Part shown: positions 6,882-55,188 of the stretch, piece by piece
Numbering within the stretch: the stretch's first letter is position 1
Layout: every line of letters begins with the position of its first letter
Origin: Pontivivens marinum
GTDB lineage: Bacteria > Pseudomonadota > Alphaproteobacteria > Rhodobacterales > Rhodobacteraceae
Direction: 5' to 3'
Assembly (NCBI RefSeq): GCF_900231835.1
Contig: NZ_OCTN01000002.1
Span: 248,001 to 312,000, forward strand
Length of the DNA: 64,000 bases
Program-made: the position numbers and the translations under genes
Notes under the pieces: model-generated
What the model saw: only the letters and a program-made list of their open reading frames with translations
The model's database searches: none
What the model was told of the DNA's origin: nothing

Positions 6882-7607
6882 ATGACCTGTAATAGACCAA
6901 GCAATGTCGCCATTATTATGGATGGCAACGGGCGTTGGGCAGTTCGTCGTGGCTTGCCTCGGGTGGCGGGGCACAAAAAGGGTGTGCAGCGCGTGCGTGA
7001 TATCGTGCGCGCGTGCCCTGATTTGGGCGTCAAAACACTAACCCTCTACGCATTTTCAACCGAAAACTGGAAACGCCCGGTGATTGAGGTTGCGGCCCTA
7101 ATGCGCCTGTTTCGCATCTATATTCGGATGGAGGCGGCGGCTCTGGAAAGCAGCGGCGTGCGGGTTCGGTTTCTGGGGGAACGCAGCGCCCTTGCCCCAG
7201 ATATCCAGCGGATGATGGATGGGCTGGAAGCACGAACGGTCGATAATGACGTTCTGACCCTGCAAATCGCGCTGAACTATGGTGGGCGCGACGAGATTGT
7301 GCGTGCAGCACAACGTATCGCGGCTGAGGTTGCCAGTGGCCAGATGCAGGTTTCCGACATTACGCAGGATAGCTTTAGCGCCGCCCTGGATACTGGCGGT
7401 GTTGAGGATCCGGAGCTGATCGTAAGGACCAGCGGTGAATATCGTACATCGAATTTCCTGCCCTGGCAGGCGGCATATGCAGAATATGCCTTTGTTGCTG
7501 AATGCTGGCCCGATTTCACGCCAACCATCTTTGGTGAGTTGCTGGATGAATTCGGAACACGTGAGCGACGGTTTGGTGCCATTGAGGCGCAGGGCGGCAA
7601 CGTTTGA
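6882..7607 (+). CDS. uppS: Isoprenyl transferase (undecaprenyl diphosphate synthase)
   Basis: Cis-prenyltransferase of 241 residues that elongates farnesyl diphosphate with isopentenyl diphosphate to make the C55 carrier lipid for peptidoglycan and O-antigen. The catalytic MDGNGRWA loop is at residues 13-20 (Asp14), followed by GLPRVAGHKKG, TLYAFSTENWKRP and the C-terminal RTSGEYRTSNFLPWQAAYAE segment that binds the diphosphate. AAAGGA precedes the ATG. Its stop overlaps the TTG start of cdsA. dxr, which feeds the same isoprenoid pathway, is two genes downstream. Confidence 0.95.
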   Translation: MTCNRPSNVAIIMDGNGRWAVRRGLPRVAGHKKGVQRVRDIVRACPDLGVKTLTLYAFSTENWKRPVIEVAALMRLFRIYIRMEAAALESSGVRVRFLGERSALAPDIQRMMDGLEARTVDNDVLTLQIALNYGGRDEIVRAAQRIAAEVASGQMQVSDITQDSFSAALDTGGVEDPELIVRTSGEYRTSNFLPWQAAYAEYAFVAECWPDFTPTIFGELLDEFGTRERRFGAIEAQGGNV

Positions 7608-8419
7608 CTAAATCTTCTTCCAAGTTTGCCGATCTTCGGCTTCGCCTGATTTCGGCACTGGTTTTGGCCGGTGTCGCATTGGTTGTCTTCCTTTTTGGTG
7701 GATTGTGGAGCGCTGTTCTGCTTGCCATTGGCACCGGTGCGATGGTTTGGGAATGGCGCGAAATGGTCGTCGGGCAGGGGCAGGGATTACGGCCGCCCGG
7801 CATCCTGATGATCGCTGTCGCTGCCATCGCTGTGATCGTGTCGGATCAGTTCAATCCAATCACTGGTATGGCGGTTTTGGTCGTCGGAACGTTGATCAGT
7901 GCAGCATGGGAACGTGAGCGGCTACGTTTTACCGTCACCGGTGCGCTATATATCGGCGTCGCGATGATTTGTATCGAGGCACTGCGTGCGGATTCCCGTT
8001 TCGGTTTCCTAGCTGTTTTGTGGTTGGTTCTGGTGGTGGTTGCCGTTGATGTTGGCGGCTATTTTGGCGGGCGCGTTTTTGGCGGGCCAAAGCTGTGGCA
8101 GCGGGTCAGCCCCAAGAAAACATGGTCCGGCCTGATCGGCAGTGTGGGTTGCGCGCAGTTCGTTGGCTTTATTTTCGCGCTGGTAGTCGGGTTGAGTTAT
8201 CCGGCTGAGGTAGCGTTGATGTCTGCCCTTGTCGCGCTGGTCGCCGTCGGTGGGGATTTGGTTGAGAGCGCGGCCAAACGGTTCTTTGGCGTTAAGGATT
8301 CCAGTCGCTTGATGCCCGGACATGGCGGCATATTGGATCGCTTGGATGGCCTAATGGCCGCGGCAATTCTGGTTGCGGTGGTTAGCTTTGTGCGCGGGCA
8401 GAGCATCTTTCTGTGGTAA
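7604..8419 (+). CDS. cdsA: Phosphatidate cytidylyltransferase (CDP-diglyceride synthase)
   Basis: Makes CDP-diacylglycerol from phosphatidate and CTP, the branch point of phospholipid synthesis; inner-membrane enzyme of 271 residues with about eight helices. The CDS signature is clear near the C-terminus: GGDLVESAAKR then KDSSRLMPGHGGILDRLDG. The TTG start at 7604 overlaps the uppS stop (TTGA), and the end overlaps dxr by 7 bases, so translation is coupled on both sides. Confidence 0.94.
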   Translation: MTKSSSKFADLRLRLISALVLAGVALVVFLFGGLWSAVLLAIGTGAMVWEWREMVVGQGQGLRPPGILMIAVAAIAVIVSDQFNPITGMAVLVVGTLISAAWERERLRFTVTGALYIGVAMICIEALRADSRFGFLAVLWLVLVVVAVDVGGYFGGRVFGGPKLWQRVSPKKTWSGLIGSVGCAQFVGFIFALVVGLSYPAEVALMSALVALVAVGGDLVESAAKRFFGVKDSSRLMPGHGGILDRLDGLMAAAILVAVVSFVRGQSIFLW

Positions 8420-48076: not shown

Positions 48077-48904
48077 ATGCAGCAATTACGCACCCTTTCT
48101 GGCACACCGACGGCCCCGCATCAGCGGGCGCAGGGTCATGCGCGTGTGGTTTTCGGTAGCCATGGCCGCTTGACCCGTTTGCGACAGCAGGGTTCGGCCA
48201 AGGCGATGCTGCCCCGTGTGCACAACACGATGCCCGAGGTTGTTTTCGTGAATACCTGCGGTGGCGTGACCGGTGGCGATCATTTCCGCTGGGAATTGTC
48301 TGTGGAGCAGGGCGCCGCCGTGACCGGCACGACGCAGGCTGCGGAGAGGCTCTATCAGGCCTCAAGCGGTCGCGGACGGATCGAGACTGTGCTGCGTGCC
48401 GGTAATGGGGCGCGTCTGCACTGGTTGCCCATGGAAACAATCCTGTTTCAGGAATGCTCGGTTGATCGTCAGATCGATGTGGAGCTAGAGGGCGATGCCG
48501 AATTTCTGGGCGTTGAAGCATTGATCCTAGGCCGCGCCGCCATGGGTGAGGTGCTGCGCAACGCGCATTTCACAGATAATTGGCGCATCCGGCGCAATGG
48601 ACGCTTGGTTCAGGCCGAGGCATTTCGGCTGAGCGGCGATCTGGCCGATGTGTTGGGCGGCTCTGCAACGCTGGGCGGTGTGGGTGCGCTGGCGACGATT
48701 GTGCTTAGCGCGCGGGATGCTGCGGACAGGTTGGAACCGCTGCGTGCACGTTTGCCCGACAGTGTGACCTGCGGTGCGTCTGCGTGGAACGGACAATTGG
48801 TGGTGCGGCTACATGCGCCGGATCACAGGCCGCTAAAGGTGGCATTGATTGAGATACTGACCTGGCTGCGGGGCGCATCCCTGCCGCGTGTCTGGAATAT
48901 GTGA
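48077..48904 (+). CDS. ureD: Urease accessory protein UreD
   Basis: Scaffold that, with UreF and UreG, loads nickel into apo-urease. 275 residues. Motifs: [72 protein letters not shown], and a PLRARLP-GALAT-type C-terminus. It heads the operon ureD-A-x-x-B-C-x-E-F-x-G. No clear ribosome-binding site precedes the ATG at 48077. ureA starts 8 bases after its stop. Confidence 0.93.
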
Positions 48905-48911
48905 GGACCAA

Positions 48912-49214
48912 ATGAACCTGACCCCCCGAGAAAAAGACAAGCTGCTGATCAGCCTCGCCGCCATGGTCGCCCGTGGTCGGTTGGAGCGGGGCGTAAAGCT
49001 GAACCACCCCGAGGCAATCGCTCTGATCACCGATTTCGTGGTTGAGGGCGCGCGGGCCGGTCGCTCCGTCGCCGATTTGATGGAGGCAGGGGCGGAGGTC
49101 ATCACCCGTGAGATGTGCATGGATGGCATCGCCGAGATGATCCACGACGTACAGGTCGAGGCGACATTCCCTGACGGGACCAAGCTGGTCACCGTGCATC
49201 AGCCGATCCGGTAG
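48912..49214 (+). CDS. ureA: Urease subunit gamma
   Basis: Structural subunit, 100 residues, the usual bacterial length. [40 protein letters not shown] and VTVHQPI at the end are diagnostic. The ATG at 48912 matches the family start. In most bacteria ureB follows directly; here two foreign genes (His-rich peptide and potassium channel) lie between. Confidence 0.97.
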
Positions 49215-49248: not shown

Positions 49249-49404
49249 ATGAGAATTTCAGTTTTGGCACTCAGCCTGATGCCGAGCGTCGCAATGGCAC
49301 ATGGCAGCACAGCAATTCACGCGCACCCCCACGGTGCCGAGGGGTTAATCGGCGGTTTGGCCCTGATCGCACTGGCGGCTGGCGCGGCGTGGTTGCGCCG
49401 GTGA
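49249..49404 (+). CDS. 51-residue His-rich exported membrane peptide inside the urease operon
   Basis: From the ATG at 49249, with CTAAGG about 8 bases upstream. Signal peptide MRISVLALSLMPSVAMA, then HGSTAIHAHPHGAEG with four His in the first 12 residues, then a hydrophobic helix (LIGGLALIALAAGAAWL) and a final RR. After cleavage the peptide would present a His cluster to the periplasm, anchored by one helix. HxH-rich stretches bind nickel or zinc in many proteins, so a metal role near urease is plausible but unproved. It lies between ureA and the channel gene. Confidence 0.65.
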   Translation: MRISVLALSLMPSVAMAHGSTAIHAHPHGAEGLIGGLALIALAAGAAWLRR

Positions 49405-49432
49405 CTTTACGAACAAAGGGATTGCGCATCGG

Positions 49433-50179
49433 ATGAGAGTCGTTGCCCGATCAAAGGAGGCACGTGTGCGTGTGCAGTCATTGCTGGATGGCAGTGATCC
49501 TGAATGGGGGCACATGATGCTTGTCGCACAGCAAAGTGTGATCCTACTGGCGATTGTAGCGTTTACGATTTCGACGATGCCGGACCTGCCTGAATGGCTG
49601 GATAATATGCTGGACGTGGTCAACATGTTTGTTCTGGTGATCTTTGCATCAGAATACCTGCGACGGCTTTGGGCGGCGCTGTCGCGTTTGGGATACATGT
49701 TCAGTCTGTGGGGCATTATTGATCTGCTGTCCTTTCTACCGACGATGCTGATCGCGTCGACGCAGTCACAGGGCGTACGCGCATTGCGGCTGCTGCAACT
49801 GGTCCGCATTGCCAAAGTCGGGCGTTACAGTCGGGCTTTGCTGCGATTGGCGCGGGCGTTGAACGAGGTGCGCAGCGAGCTGACCCTTGGCCTGTTTCTT
49901 GCTGGCTTGGTGCTATACGTCGCGGCCAGTGGCATCTGGATTTTCGAGAGGTCTGCACAGCCGGAGCTATTCGGCTCCATCTTTGACTGCTTGTGGTGGG
50001 CGATCGTGACGATGTCCACCGTTGGTTATGGCGATGCCTATCCGATAACTGCGGGTGGGCGCATTTTTACAGCTTTGGTGCTGGTTGTTGGGCTTGCGGT
50101 GATCGCGCTCCCGACGGCGTTAATTTCTGCTGCGTTGGTGCGTAGCGAATTTGAGGAGCATGATGATGATACCCGGTGA
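49433..50179 (+). CDS. Six-helix voltage-gated-type potassium channel inside the urease operon
   Basis: 248 residues. Helices S1-S4 (about 30-140), with S4 carrying regularly spaced charges (Arg116, Arg119, Arg125, Lys128, Arg131, Arg134 in [20 protein letters not shown]), then S5, pore helix and selectivity filter TVGYGD at 196-201, and S6. The filter is the canonical potassium form. The short C-terminus lacks a nucleotide-binding or RCK domain. Its last 14 bases overlap the ureB start (ATG 50166), so it is translationally coupled to urease. Whether it balances potassium or ammonium during urea hydrolysis is inference. Weakly supported start; AAAGGGA is 12 bases upstream. Confidence 0.88.
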
Positions 50180-50474
50180 AATCCTGCCAATGGCGGGTGA
50201 GATTGAGTTGAATTCCGGCGCGCCTGTCATCGTGCTGACCGTGGCCAATACAGGCGACCGCCCCGTGCAGGTCGGTAGCCACTATCATTTTGCCGAGACA
50301 AATCCGGCGCTGGATTTTGACCGTGATGCGGCGCGTGGCCTGCGGCTGGACATCGCGGCGGGAACGGCGGTGCGGTTTGAGCCGGGGCAATCGCGTGATG
50401 TTGCCTTGGTGCCCTACGGCGGCGCGCGCAAGGTCTACGGCTTTAACGGCGCTGTTATGGGCGCGTTGGACTAA
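50166..50474 (+). CDS. ureB: Urease subunit beta
   Basis: Structural subunit of 102 residues. The ATG at 50166 follows GAGGAG (50153-50158) inside the end of the channel gene and gives the family start MIPGEI. Motifs: [49 protein letters not shown]. ureC follows after 57 bases. Confidence 0.97.
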
Positions 50475-50531: not shown

Positions 50532-52232
50532 ATGCCAACCCATATTTCCCGCGCCTCCTATGCCGATATGTATGGCCCGACCACTGGCGATCGTGTTCGG
50601 CTGGCGGATACAGATTTGATTATCGAGGTTGAGAAAGATCTGACAACCTACGGGGAAGAAGTGAAATTCGGCGGTGGTAAGGTCATCCGCGACGGAATGG
50701 GCCAATCGCAGGCAACACGCGCCGAAGGGTCCGCTGATACGGTTATTACCAACGCGCTGATCGTGGATCATAGCGGCATCTACAAGGCGGATGTAGCCCT
50801 GCGTGACGGGCGAATTTCCAAGATTGGCAAGGCTGGAAATCCCGACACACAAAGCGGCGTTGATATCATCATCGGACCAGGGACGGAGATCATCGCGGGC
50901 GAGGGCCGTATCCTGACCGCAGGTGGTTTTGACAGCCACATCCACTTCATCTGCCCGCAACAGGTGGAAGATGCGCTGCATTCCGGCATCACTACTATGC
51001 TGGGCGGCGGTACGGGACCGGCGCATGGAACGCTGGCAACCACCTGCACCCCCGGTCCGTGGCATATCGGGCGGATGTTGCAGGCGCTGGACGGATTGCC
51101 AATGAATTTCGGGCTGTCGGCGAAGGGTAATGCCTCGCGTCCTGATGCCCTGGTCGAGATGGTCAAGGCAGGTGCCTGCGCCATGAAGCTGCACGAGGAT
51201 TGGGGGACCACACCCGCCGCCATCGATACTTGCCTCAGCGTGGCGGATGACATGGATGTTCAGGTGATGATCCACACCGATACGTTGAACGAGAGCGGCT
51301 TTGTCGAGAATACCGTGGGCGCGATCAAGGGGCGCACCATCCATGCCTTCCACACCGAGGGGGCGGGCGGTGGTCACGCGCCTGATATCATCAAGGTCTG
51401 TGGTTACTCCAACGTCATCCCGTCCTCGACCAACCCGACGCGCCCCTACACGGTGAACACGTTGGAGGAGCATTTGGATATGTTGATGGTATGCCACCAC
51501 CTCGACAAATCGATCCCCGAGGATGTCGCCTTTGCCGAGAGCCGCATCCGGCGCGAAACCATTGCGGCAGAGGATATCCTGCACGATATGGGCGCGTTCT
51601 CGATCATCGCGTCTGATAGTCAGGCGATGGGCCGTGTGGGTGAGGTTGCCATTCGCACGTGGCAAACCGCTGATAAGATGCGCAAACAGCGTGGACGTTT
51701 GCCCGAGGAAACTGGTGATAACGATAACATGCGTGTGCGCCGTTACATCGCGAAATACACCATCAATCCGGCAATTGCCCACGGGATCAGCCGCGAAATC
51801 GGCTCGATTGAGGAGGGCAAGCGCGCCGATCTGGTGCTGTGGTCGCCTGCATTCTTTGGCGTGAAGCCCGAGATGGTCCTGATCGGTGGCACCATCGCAA
51901 TGGCTCAGATGGGCGATCCGAATGCGAGCATCCCGACGCCGCAACCCGTCTATTCCCGCCCGATGTTCGGCGCGCTAGGCCGTGCGCAGGAGGTTGCCTC
52001 GGTCCATTTCGTCAGTGCCGCGGCGGAGGTCGGTCATCTGGGCCTGCGCAAGGGAACCGTCGCGGTTGAGAATACGCGGGGTGGCATCGGCAAAGCCTCA
52101 ATGATCCACAACGATTACTGCCCCGATATTGATGTGAATCCAGAAACCTACGAGGTGCGCGCCGATGGTGAACTGCTGACCTGCGAACCGGCCGAGGTTC
52201 TGCCGATGGCGCAGCGGTATTTTATGTTTTGA
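50532..52232 (+). CDS. ureC: Urease subunit alpha (catalytic)
   Basis: Hydrolyses urea to ammonia and carbamate with a dinuclear nickel centre. 566 residues. All nickel and catalytic residues are present: His136 and His138 (DSHIHFICP), carbamylated Lys219 ([12 protein letters not shown]), His248 (MIHTDT), His274 ([13 protein letters not shown]), Asp362 ([10 protein letters not shown]) and the mobile flap Cys321-His322 ([13 protein letters not shown]). So the enzyme should be active. Beyond its stop the operon is interrupted by the AbiJ-like gene before ureE. Confidence 0.98.
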
Positions 52233-52241
52233 GGGTGAGTG

Positions 52242-53084
52242 ATGAAGTTTTCGCAACGATACGGCATCACATCGCCACCACAAAAACTATCAATGGAGGC
52301 AATGCCAGATCAGTTGCGCGCTGGTTTATGGAATGCCGTGCGTGCCACGTTTTTAATCTCTGACTTTGAGGAATATAATTACCTTGATCCGCGTCTGTCT
52401 GCCCTCGCAGACTCTATTTGGGGTGATCACTTCAAGGAGCCGACTGATAGTTACCCGGATAGAGTCAACCGGCTTACTTTTGAAATTCGATCTCGTTTCT
52501 TCGAGTTTAAATGGTACGAAGTTTACGACTTTATCGAGTTTCTAACTAATGAAAAATTTCAGGGTGGCCTCTTCTACCCAATAGACAACGTTAGTAAATT
52601 TGCGGCAACGTGTAACGACGTTCTTGCAAGGGAAATGGCGCTGGTTCGCTTCGTTAATCTTAAGCTAACCACCATCTCGGATGAGCAGGAAATCGTAGAG
52701 ATCGAGACAGCAACAAGTTCGCCCCATGCCCCTATCGCCGAGCATTTCAAGCAGGCGTTAGCGTTTCTATCAGACCGTAAATCACCTGATTATAAAAACA
52801 GTATTAAAGAATCCATCAGCGGTGTCGAGGCCGCAGCGAAGTTCGCGACGGGGGATAGTAAAGCTACGCTTGGGCAGGCATTAGGGCAGCTAGAAAAAAA
52901 TAGGGAACTCCACACGGCTTTAGCTAAAGGCTTTAAAAACCTTTATGGCTGGACCAGTGATAAATCGGGTATCAGACATGCCTTGATGGATGGAGATACA
53001 GATCTTTCGCAAGATGATGCGCGCTACATGCTTGTAAGCTGTAGTGCGTTTGCAAATTACCTCATTGCTTCTAAGGCTGATTAA
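52242..53084 (+). CDS. AbiJ-NTD4-type putative phage-defence (abortive infection) protein in the urease operon
   Basis: 280 residues from the ATG at 52242. The N-terminus (MKFSQRYGITSP, then LRAGLWNAVR) matches the AbiJ N-terminal domain 4 family. The C-terminal part (about 185-280) looks like the HEPN-related domain linked to it: KATLGQALGQLEKN, LYGWTSDKSGIRHALM with Arg245 and His246, and YMLVSCSAFANYLI at the end. HEPN domains are usually RNases; the exact active site is not proved here. Base composition and codon use are more AT-rich than the flanking ure genes, so it was probably inserted between ureC and ureE. Ribosome-binding site GAGGGTGAG. ureE starts 1 base after its stop. Confidence 0.8.
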   Translation: MKFSQRYGITSPPQKLSMEAMPDQLRAGLWNAVRATFLISDFEEYNYLDPRLSALADSIWGDHFKEPTDSYPDRVNRLTFEIRSRFFEFKWYEVYDFIEFLTNEKFQGGLFYPIDNVSKFAATCNDVLAREMALVRFVNLKLTTISDEQEIVEIETATSSPHAPIAEHFKQALAFLSDRKSPDYKNSIKESISGVEAAAKFATGDSKATLGQALGQLEKNRELHTALAKGFKNLYGWTSDKSGIRHALMDGDTDLSQDDARYMLVSCSAFANYLIASKAD

Positions 53085-53085
53085 T

Positions 53086-53529
53086 ATGCGCGCCACACAC
53101 CTAGCCCATTCCCACGAGGTCCCAGCCGATACGCTGACCCTGACCTATGATGACCGGTATCGGCGGCGGATGGCGATGCAATCCGATAACGGGCTGTCGT
53201 TCCTGCTGGATTTGCCCGAGGCGCAGGACATGCGGGCGGGCGATAGCCTTGTTCTGGAGGATGGGCGCTTGATCCGTATCGTCGCGGCGGATGAACCGTT
53301 GATGGAAGCGGTGCCTGCGGATATCGCCAACTTACCCCGCGTGGCGTGGCATGTGGGGAACCGGCATCTGACGTGCCAAATCCTCGGCGATCGGTTGGTG
53401 CTGCGCGCGGATAAGGTGATCGGGCATATGCTGGAGCATTTGGGCTGCACAGTGACGTTCCGCGATGGGCCGTTCACGCCTGAGGGCGGGGCTTACGGGC
53501 AGGGGCGCACGCATTCGCATGAACACTGA
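53086..53529 (+). CDS. ureE: Urease accessory protein UreE (nickel metallochaperone)
   Basis: Delivers nickel to the urease activation complex. 147 residues from the ATG at 53086. The N-terminal domain has DTLTLTYDDRYRRRM and LDLPEAQDMRAGDSLVLEDG; the metal-binding domain has HVGNRHLTCQI and IGHMLEHLGCTV, and a modest His tail (THSHEH). It starts directly after the AbiJ-like gene and overlaps ureF by 11 bases. Confidence 0.94.
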   Translation: MRATHLAHSHEVPADTLTLTYDDRYRRRMAMQSDNGLSFLLDLPEAQDMRAGDSLVLEDGRLIRIVAADEPLMEAVPADIANLPRVAWHVGNRHLTCQILGDRLVLRADKVIGHMLEHLGCTVTFRDGPFTPEGGAYGQGRTHSHEH

Positions 53530-54166
53530 GGATCTGCGCCACGCGCAATTGCTGCATCAATGGTTATCCCCCGGTTATCCCACAGGCGCATTTGCATGGT
53601 CGCATGGCCTGGATCGGTTGATTGATGATGGGGAGATTGCGGATGCGGCGGGGCTGGAGTGTTGGCTGCGCGGCGTGCTGGGATATGGGTCCGGCTGGAC
53701 CGATGCAGTCTTGCTGGCCAATGCCTATCGCGCTCCTGAGCGTGCGGATGAAGTTGCCGAACTGGCCGCCGCGCTGGCCCCATCGCGTGAGCGGTTTGCG
53801 GAAACCCTGGATCAGGGGACCGGCTTTGCACGGGTGACATCGGCGGTTGCTGGCGGGTCGGAAACGCCGCGTGCCTATCCGGTTGCGCTGGCCGTTGCGG
53901 CGGCGCGTGAGGGGGTCGGGTTGGATTTGACGCTGACGCTGTACCTACAGGCCTTCGTCGCGAATCTGGTCAGTGCGGCAGTGCGCGCCGTACCGTTGGG
54001 TCAAACGGACGGCCAGCGGGTCATCACGGCGTTATCTGGAACATGTATCACCGTTGCGCAGGCGGCGCGGGATACTGATTTGACACAGGTTGGCGGTGCC
54101 GCCATCCGCGCCGATATGGCGTCGCTGCATCATGAAACCCAGTATTCGAGGATGTTCCGATCATGA
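53519..54166 (+). CDS. ureF: Urease accessory protein UreF
   Basis: Helical GTPase-regulating partner of UreG in the activation complex. 215 residues from the ATG at 53519. [54 protein letters not shown] and [16 protein letters not shown] are conserved blocks. The start overlaps ureE and its stop overlaps the next gene (ATGA). Confidence 0.94.
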
Positions 54167-54543
54167 GCGATACAACCGAGCGCGGGCGCGCGCTATCCGA
54201 GGAATTGAACCCCGGAATGGAGGCTGCGCTGGATGCGCGATATGGCCATCTGCTGCCCGGAATGGCCGAGGGGATTGTAGACTTTGCCTATGGCCGGCAA
54301 TACGGACGGCCGGGCTTGCCACTGCGTGATCGCTATATTGCGACCATTGCTGCACTAACCGCGCTGGGTGGTCAGACCCGCCCGCAGCTAAAGGTAAATG
54401 TCGCAGGTGGGCGCAAGGCTGGTTTGAGCCGTGAAGAAATCGCCGAGACGATTTGGCAGATGAGCCTGTATGGCGGATTACCGTCTGCGATCAATGGACT
54501 GAACGCGGCACTTGAAGTGTTCGCGGAGGAAGATGAGGCGTGA
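54163..54543 (+). CDS. Carboxymuconolactone-decarboxylase-like protein between ureF and ureG
   Basis: 126 residues of the CMD/AhpD-like helical fold: [40 protein letters not shown], and [20 protein letters not shown]. It has no cysteine, so it cannot have the CxxC thiol chemistry of AhpD; it is closer to the gamma-CMD type. Its ATG overlaps the ureF stop, which ties it to urease translation, and AGGA lies upstream. A role in urease maturation is not known for this family; possibly a passenger or an unstudied accessory. ureG starts 30 bases later. Confidence 0.83.
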
Positions 54544-54573: not shown

Positions 54574-55188
54574 ATGAGCAAATCGCAAAATGGACCGCTG
54601 CGGGTTGGCCTGGGCGGGCCGGTTGGTGCGGGAAAAACCGCGCTGATGGAACAGCTTTGCAAGGCGATGACAGGCAAATATTCCGTCGCTGCAATCACCA
54701 ATGATATCTACACGCGTGAGGATGCGGAGTTTCTGATGCGCGCGCAGGCGCTGCCGCTGGAACGCATTCTGGGTGTGGAAACCGGTGGCTGTCCGCATAC
54801 GGCGATCCGAGAGGATTGCTCGATCAATCTGAATGCCATTGATACGATGGTCGAGAAATTTCCCGATCTGGAACTGGTGCTGATCGAAAGTGGTGGTGAC
54901 AATCTGTCGGCTACATTCTCACCCGAGCTGGCGGACATCACCATTTATGTGATCGACGTTTGTGCCGGCGATAAAATTCCGCGCAAGGGCGGGCCGGGCA
55001 TTACGCGCGCTGATCTGCTGGTCATCAACAAGATTGATTTGGCACCGCATGTTGGTGCCTCGCTGGATGTCATGGATCGGGATGCGAAGGTGCAACGCGG
55101 GGCGCGGCCAACGGTGTTCACCAATGTGAAGGCTGGCGACGGCGTGGCCGAGATCGTTCGGTTTATTGAGACGGCTGGCGGTTTGTAA
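54574..55188 (+). CDS. ureG: Urease accessory protein UreG (GTPase)
   Basis: SIMIBI GTPase that drives nickel insertion. 204 residues. P-loop GPVGAGKT at 15-22, [36 protein letters not shown] with the Cys-Pro-His nickel site, [15 protein letters not shown] and [20 protein letters not shown] before the ATG. Last gene of the operon; a hairpin follows at 55194. Confidence 0.97.

Follow-up and report, generated by a model that had tools for sequence, protein, structure and literature searches.

The urease operon and its two additional membrane genes

The window analyzed here is the whole 64,000-nucleotide stretch of Pontivivens marinum DNA (contig NZ_OCTN01000002.1, positions 248,001 to 312,000), and all coordinates refer to its first letter. 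It carries the complete urease gene set ureDABCEFG in that order, as identified by Pfam and NCBIfam matches and, for ureG, by inspection of its sequence. All genes lie on the forward strand in the order ureD, ureA, a peptide gene, a channel gene, ureB, ureC, an AbiJ-type reading frame, ureE, ureF, a carboxymuconolactone-decarboxylase (CMD)-family reading frame and ureG, and the principal features are as follows.

48077..48904, + strand: ureD, urease accessory protein and first gene of the operon (Pfam UreD, 2e-44)
48912..49214, + strand: ureA, urease gamma subunit (Pfam Urease_gamma, 1.6e-44; NCBIfam PRK13241.1 above cut-off)
49249..49404, + strand: 51-residue peptide, reading frame from ATG 49249 to TGA 49404, with a signal sequence, mature His1, an HxHPHG cluster, one helix and an RR end
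49433..50179, + strand: 248-residue six-helix Kv-type cation channel of the purine-operon channel clade (Ion_trans, 1.4e-27; Ion_trans_2, 1.1e-15; tree clade support 95/93)
50153..50158, + strand: GAGGAG, probable ureB ribosome-binding site within the last codons of the channel gene, 7 nt before ATG 50166
50166..50474, + strand: ureB, urease beta subunit (Pfam Urease_beta, 1.5e-44)
50532..52232, + strand: ureC, urease alpha (catalytic) subunit (NCBIfam PRK13207.1, 1027 bits)
53086..53529, + strand: ureE, nickel chaperone with a short His-containing tail, RTHSHEH (UreE_N and UreE_C)
53519..54166, + strand: ureF (Pfam UreF, 1.5e-33)
54574..55188, + strand: presumably ureG, named from the look of its reading frame, which has a loop motif

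The arrangement thus bears out an earlier note on this DNA, which had described ureA, a His-rich anchored 51-residue peptide, a 248-residue channel and ureB, as well as a 14-base overlap between channel and ureB with the ribosome-binding site lying inside the channel gene. Three in-frame ATG codons are found at the start of ureB (50160, 50163 and 50166), and the overlap amounts to 14 bases if ATG 50166 is used and to 20 bases for the first of the three. Among the 15 plasmid records listed of 159, the window's ureC is 81.7-85.1% identical to copies from Ruegeria, Sulfitobacter and their kin, which points to a host in the Rhodobacterales.

The ureA-ureB junction is a variable slot

To place the two genes in a family context, we collected 125 ureB loci, consisting of 122 matches in 118 of 149 family genomes together with the three genus mates, and based all slot statistics on the 124 loci that have ureA. 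The ureA-ureB gap is shorter than 60 bases in 40 of these loci and at least 60 bases in the remaining 84, so that the view that the two genes are normally adjacent or fused, on which the earlier note relied, does not describe the rule in this family. The most frequent occupant is a short exported His-containing peptide, found in 45 of the 124 loci (44 called by script and L170 by eye); this count includes three reading frames of HupE-like appearance (L114, L160 and L162) and leaves out an exported one with few histidines (L095). HupE occupies the slot in 11 loci and HD-domain proteins in eight (L067, L070, L087, L105, L111, L173, L174 and L184), both assigned by motif, and a two-helix reading frame of 91-154 residues, often with an AEPH motif, is found in six loci by script (L069, L071, L072, L073, L108 and L131) and by eye in L103, L113 and L149. 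DUF1272 proteins are present in two loci and a channel in one, that of the window; some loci hold two types of occupant at once, and 11 gaps, several of just 63-134 bases, have no assigned occupant. The Pfam names of the HupE, HD-domain and DUF1272 occupants were confirmed on one example each, with the L184 protein identified as HD_4, and neither Pfam nor NCBIfam matches the one two-helix reading frame scanned (L071). The HD-domain proteins resemble small (p)ppGpp-hydrolase-like enzymes, and a stringent-response-type enzyme inside a urease operon would merit a separate study.

The overlap with ureB is likewise a recurrent feature. In 40 of the 42 cases where a script-called peptide directly precedes ureB, the two genes share 4 bases, and last-placed HD-domain, two-helix and other reading frames often overlap ureB as well. 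Since most other occupants show a similar overlap, close coupling to ureB is, judging from gene arrangement across these loci, a property of the slot and is not specific to the channel. We therefore rejected the 14-base overlap as a sign of a special bond between channel and enzyme, which is how the earlier note had read it. The region between ureA and ureB is hence a variable slot in this family, and the peptide and the channel are two unrelated membrane genes with different histories. Among the 125 urease loci they are found together only in the window, and a joint function of the two is therefore unsupported.

Urease operons containing foreign genes have precedents in other lineages. Miksch et al. 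are said to have described in 1994 that the urease genes of Rhizobium meliloti are interrupted by other open reading frames, and the two systems share the presence of non-urease reading frames among the ure structural genes. In Acidihalobacter, the cyanase gene cynS lies between ureA and ureB, and the authors found no other account of cynS there (PMC9062700); this supports the slot idea in that an additional gene of relevance to nitrogen and pH occupies the same position, although the product is a cyanase and the host belongs to another bacterial class. In Roseobacter, the neighborhoods of hupE/ureJ are described as highly variable (PMC4771312), and the available part of PMC2667541 contains nothing on the ureA-ureB slot.

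A conserved urease-linked peptide with a putative metal-binding N-terminus

The window's 51-residue peptide reads MRISVLALSLMPSVAMA up to a cleavage site placed by eye, followed by HGSTAIHAHPHG... AAWLRR, which would leave a free-standing mature peptide of ~34 residues. Its overall pattern, namely a signal-like front, one hydrophobic stretch and a basic end, recurs among the family's slot peptides: in the 44 slot peptides scored by script, AxA directly followed by His or Asp is found in 43, HxH in 42, HPH in 33 and a basic end in all 44. Within the genus, two of the three mates carry a slot peptide (L185 and L186), and the third (L184) has the HD-domain gene in its place. We then built a profile from 33 of the 45 slot peptides and ran it on 240 genomes of the class regardless of whether they contain urease (E ≤ 1e-4). 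Seven of its eight matches lie between ureA and ureB (L270-L276): one is the window peptide itself, two others come from its family, and the remaining four each belong to a different family. The eighth and weakest (L277) falls on a 1,857-base piece devoid of urease genes. With eight matches in 240 genomes, either the peptide is rare beyond the family or the profile overlooks copies of it.

Existing annotation offers little guidance. The equivalent in Ruegeria sp. THAF33 (L312:3538-3699), of 53 residues, is annotated as 'peptidase M23' and those in two other named records as 'hypothetical protein'. The window peptide has no Pfam match; DUF6732, of which we found no mention in the open-access library searched, is matched by 15 of 33 short slot reading frames at E ≤ 1 (best 0.0032, below the Pfam gathering cut-off) and not by the window's, and the NCBIfam GVDTG_CTERM sorting signal matches the peptide weakly (E 0.035; 14.4 bits against a cut-off of 29). 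Taken by its sequence pattern and genomic position, the peptide is thus a conserved, unstudied, urease-linked small protein.

PMC12537917 describes the Anglerase domains Ang-1 and Ang-2, the former exemplified by a protein from a Rhodobacteraceae bacterium, as carrying a mature N-terminal His outside the membrane that is proposed to act as a metal catch, and provides the more general precedent of metal-binding proteins, among them domains linked to HupE/UreJ-2, in which a His comes first once the signal peptide is removed. The mature N-terminal His is shared with the slot peptide, whereas Anglerases, as characterized there, are folded domains fused to HupE/UreJ-2 and the peptide consists of 51 unfused residues. 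Based on its His pattern, its link to urease and this precedent of N-terminal-His proteins (PMC12537917), we propose that the peptide is probably a periplasmic metal-binding anchor: it would be exported and cleaved to leave an N-terminal His followed by HxHPHG, remain anchored in the inner membrane by its single helix, and most likely bind a transition metal on the periplasmic face, the obvious candidate being Ni2+ destined for urease. Present in many urease operons of this family and in some of other alphaproteobacterial families, this small exported protein with its cluster of histidines may be an overlooked part of nickel supply to urease.

An alternative origin, which we consider unlikely, is that the peptide is a shrunken HupE/UreJ nickel permease, that is, an N-terminal fragment that has kept the His-bearing front and the first helix. 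The peptide and HupE/UreJ indeed share an exported front, a His right past the likely cleavage site and the ureA-ureB slot, which HupE itself fills in the 11 loci mentioned above; furthermore, two short slot reading frames match HupE_UreJ (L162 at 5.3e-9, above cut-off, and L114 at 0.002, below it), and one HupE N-terminus weakly matches DUF6732 (4e-5, below cut-off), as do the 15 short reading frames. The peptide, however, contains a single helix, lacks the DH motif of HupE and gives no significant match by profile, HupE_UreJ being among the Pfam families that fail to detect the window's copy. When a profile of 42 mature peptides was compared by hhalign with one of 11 HupE N-termini, the probability was 0.43% (E 0.14, score 9.7), a score surpassed by at least 15 of the 40 controls with shuffled columns (best 17.0). 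As the profile comparison failed against shuffled controls, descent of the peptide from HupE is not supported.

The channel is a short Kv-type protein

The earlier note had also recognized a six-helix channel with a TVGYGD filter and a charged S4, and this identification is upheld by structure prediction. An AlphaFold2 model computed with 34 sequences has a mean pLDDT of 90.0 and contains six transmembrane-length helical segments and a pore helix. The 50 best Foldseek matches are all Kv1, Kv2, Kv4, Shaker or KCNQ chains, and phmmer against PDB chains retrieves the Kv1.2/Kv2.1 chimera at 1.2e-24. The filter reads STVGYGD, in which TVGYGD is the K+ signature; basic residues are found at every third position of S4 (R116, R119, R125, K128, R131 and R134, with Q at 122), and acidic partners are present in S2/S3 (E74 and D97), whose roles, like those of the S4 charges, we take from Kv channels. 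The protein is full-length, and 28 columns are invariant over the 34 sequences, its own included. By family and predicted fold it is thus a Kv-type potassium channel, with predicted voltage gating and K+ selectivity. Its S1-S6 helices, charged S4, pore helix and TVGYGD filter are shared with bacterial six-helix Kv-type K+ channels (Pfam Ion_trans; KvAP, Kv1/Kv2/Kv4), from which it differs in being short, in being encoded within a urease operon and in lacking a cytoplasmic regulatory domain. Indeed, Pfam detects channel domains only, and in the model a helix spanning residues 207-247 extends to the C terminus. The window's genome contains a single Ion_trans_2 match.

Most family relatives of the channel reside in putative purine-type operons

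Within the genus, the channel is found in one of four genomes, that of the window, and is absent from all three genus mates (E ≤ 1e-10). Across the family, 38 of 394 genomes, the window's included, have a homologue at E ≤ 1e-40, with a best identity of 50% to the window's protein. In 33 of the 37 other genomes the channel sits in an ABC transporter locus, as read by tblastn in 32 (pieces L224-L248, L250, L251, L253, L254 and L257-L259, with L255 and L256 repeating L224 and L225) and by coordinates in G237. The operon order there is ATPase, two permeases, channel and BMP/PnrA-like binding protein, and the channel lies immediately ahead of the BMP gene in 32 of the 33, with about 2.3 kb between the two in G366. 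Of the 20 long pieces, 18 give a match to xdhB and/or xdhC, which is weak in one case (L225, 43%). In L229, for example, the permease gene ends at 7123, the channel gene spans 7133-7888 and the BMP gene starts at 7890; the encoded proteins carry Pfam Bmp, BPD_transp_2, ABC_tran and XdhC domains, and TIGR02965 (xdhB) and TIGR02964 (xdhC) score above cut-off. Given its BMP-family protein and the nearby xanthine dehydrogenase genes, the operon would encode a purine-type importer, for which NCBIfam returns only 'putative B6' transporter matches below cut-off. Four genomes depart from this context: in G014, G059 and G175 the channel clusters with sequences from gammaproteobacteria and others, and in G267 it is 21 kb away from the BMP gene.

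No ureA, ureB, ureC or ureD was detected on 62 channel-homologue pieces read with flanks of 1.5 or 6 kb, contig permitting (16 of them named, mostly gammaproteobacterial), or on 20 read with flanks of up to about 7 kb. Outside the family, a profile search of 240 genomes of the class (E ≤ 1e-50) identified a channel in 30 others, at 34 places, and in the 29 places read no BMP, permease or urease neighbor was found within about 1.5 kb; the purine link is therefore local to this family. A search of the plasmid collection returned seven records, all below 60% identity (28-34% for those listed) and none from the window's taxonomic order. The urease position of the channel is thus confined to a single genome, with no second species among those searched. 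Nor does purine use regularly involve the channel, as 356 of the 394 family genomes have no homologue at the above threshold.

In light of its absence from the genus mates and of urease genes from the homologue pieces, we rejected the idea that the channel is a conserved partner of urease. The earlier note had proposed a urease-coupled system of peptide and channel and had named, as one part of what would count against it, the absence of both from relatives with urease. Such absence is seen for the channel, given the three genus mates without it and the 62, 20 and 29 pieces without urease, and not for the peptide, which recurs in 45 of 124 family loci and in the slot in seven of eight class-wide matches.

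Phylogenetic reconstruction is consistent with this distribution. In a tree of 61 channel sequences, the window's channel falls in a 34-row clade (support 95/93) together with 32 purine-located rows and G267, and its nearest set (L003, L198, L009 and L195), supported at 90/88 and so short of the strict threshold, is entirely purine-located. Forcing the 32 purine-located rows together with the window's channel left outside worsens the tree by 5.7 log units, a difference that the AU test does not reject (p-AU 0.185). Tree placement thus assigns the channel to the purine-operon lineage; it may have left a purine operon for the urease slot or have branched off earlier, as nested and sister placements both fit the tree. 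With members of this clade, such as L229:7133-7888, the window's protein shares 39-49% identity over the alignment and, largely, an FExxAQPExFxSI stretch before the pore; it differs in its tail, which is shorter than most, and in its position between peptide and ureB instead of between ABC permease and BMP. Since it is diverged (best identity 50%, end branch 1.42), relaxed constraint is possible. The window's genome has a purine locus of its own, comprising xdhA (by eye), xdhB, xdhC, an ABC ATPase, two permeases and BMP in order; it contains no channel, with 43 bases separating permease and BMP, and the purine loci of the three genus mates are likewise channel-free.

A proposed role in ion balance during nitrogen release

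Purine breakdown proceeds through xanthine, urate, allantoin and ureidoglycolate and releases urea. Ureidoglycolate lyase, which catalyzes the urea-releasing step, is encoded in 10 of 10 genomes tested, that of the window included. Because purine breakdown yields urea and urease converts urea to ammonium, the purine and urease positions of the channel belong to one nitrogen-releasing pathway. The idea of an ion- and pH-balancing channel gains support from this relation, in that purine-type operons are where the family's channel clade is found and urea is the end product of the purine pathway.

We therefore favor, with a probability of about one half, an explanation that combines a conserved urease-linked metal-binding peptide with a Kv channel of purine-operon lineage that balances ions in the urease operon. 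Ammonia made by urease would be protonated in the cytoplasm, raising the pH and the cation load; depolarization or a local ion change would open the channel, K+ would exit (or NH4+ leak), and K+ exit would keep charge, pH and cation load within bounds. Gene order, protein families, clade and distribution are observed; within this explanation we infer the purine substrate of the importer, the move into the slot, metal binding, ion balancing and co-expression. A broader reading, which we put forward tentatively, is that of a voltage-sensing K+ channel lineage dedicated to organic-nitrogen breakdown, located in the purine uptake/xanthine dehydrogenase operon of dozens of genera and once in a urease operon, which would serve the final step of that pathway. 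If so, the channel would be the ion-balancing part of a catabolic pathway whose substrates have little or no charge. Little is known, to our knowledge, of what Kv-type channels do in bacterial physiology, and among the papers listed from the open-access library searched we recognized none that places a K+ channel in an operon for urease or for purines. A channel line that accompanies purine breakdown, and here urease, would suggest a concrete and testable role, namely charge and pH balance upon ammonia release.

The main rival, given the urease position in one genome only and the long branch, is that the channel is a neutral or selfish passenger: the junction would tolerate inserts that restore the start/stop overlap with ureB, and the channel would be one recent occupant with no role in urea use. 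The high variability of the slot, empty in 40 of 124 loci and otherwise filled by peptide, HupE, HD-domain, two-helix or DUF1272 proteins, fits such a history, as do the single occurrence at urease and the long end branch. The reading frame, pore and voltage sensor are nevertheless intact, and the newcomer is not random, its family relatives belonging to the same nitrogen pathway, and we consider a mere passenger rather unlikely. A second alternative, which appears distinctly improbable, is an ammonium valve that exports NH4+ when urea or purine use exceeds the nitrogen need, with K+ flux secondary. The placement of the channel line at two ammonia-yielding operons and the fact that K+ channels let some NH4+ pass would agree with it; TVGYGD, however, is the standard K+ filter and passes NH4+ less well than K+. 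Electrical signaling, in which voltage-gated K+ release would inform neighbors of the nitrogen state in the manner of YugO, the channel of K+ signaling in Bacillus biofilms, is very hard to uphold: the S4 charges are present, but there is no regulatory domain by Pfam, and the terminal helix reaches the C terminus. Finally, an assembly artefact joining a purine-locus channel onto the urease operon would agree with the placement in only one genome and is scarcely credible, as none of the other family copies found exceeds 50% identity to the channel, the genome shows a single copy, both junctions are gene-precise within a 704-kb contig, and the purine locus is intact without a channel. We thus retain ion balance by a purine-lineage channel as the preferred explanation.

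Further variation in and around the operon

Three slot reading frames elsewhere (L162, L114 and, by eye, L275) look like HupE cut behind its first helix. Downstream of the slot, a 281-residue reading frame with an AbiJ_NTD4 domain (1.3e-25) lies between ureC and ureE (52239-53084); with a GC content of 0.457 against 0.575 for the window, it is probably a recent arrival and perhaps a defense gene, and relatives are found in two of the 125 urease loci, the window and L101. The carboxymuconolactone-decarboxylase-family reading frame between ureF and ureG (54163-54543) has relatives in four of the 125 loci, the window included. The ureB-ureC junction is variable too: across the 125 loci, it measures less than 100 bases in 47, 100-400 in 17, 400-1000 in 27 and more than 1000 in 30, the other four being without a usable ureC.
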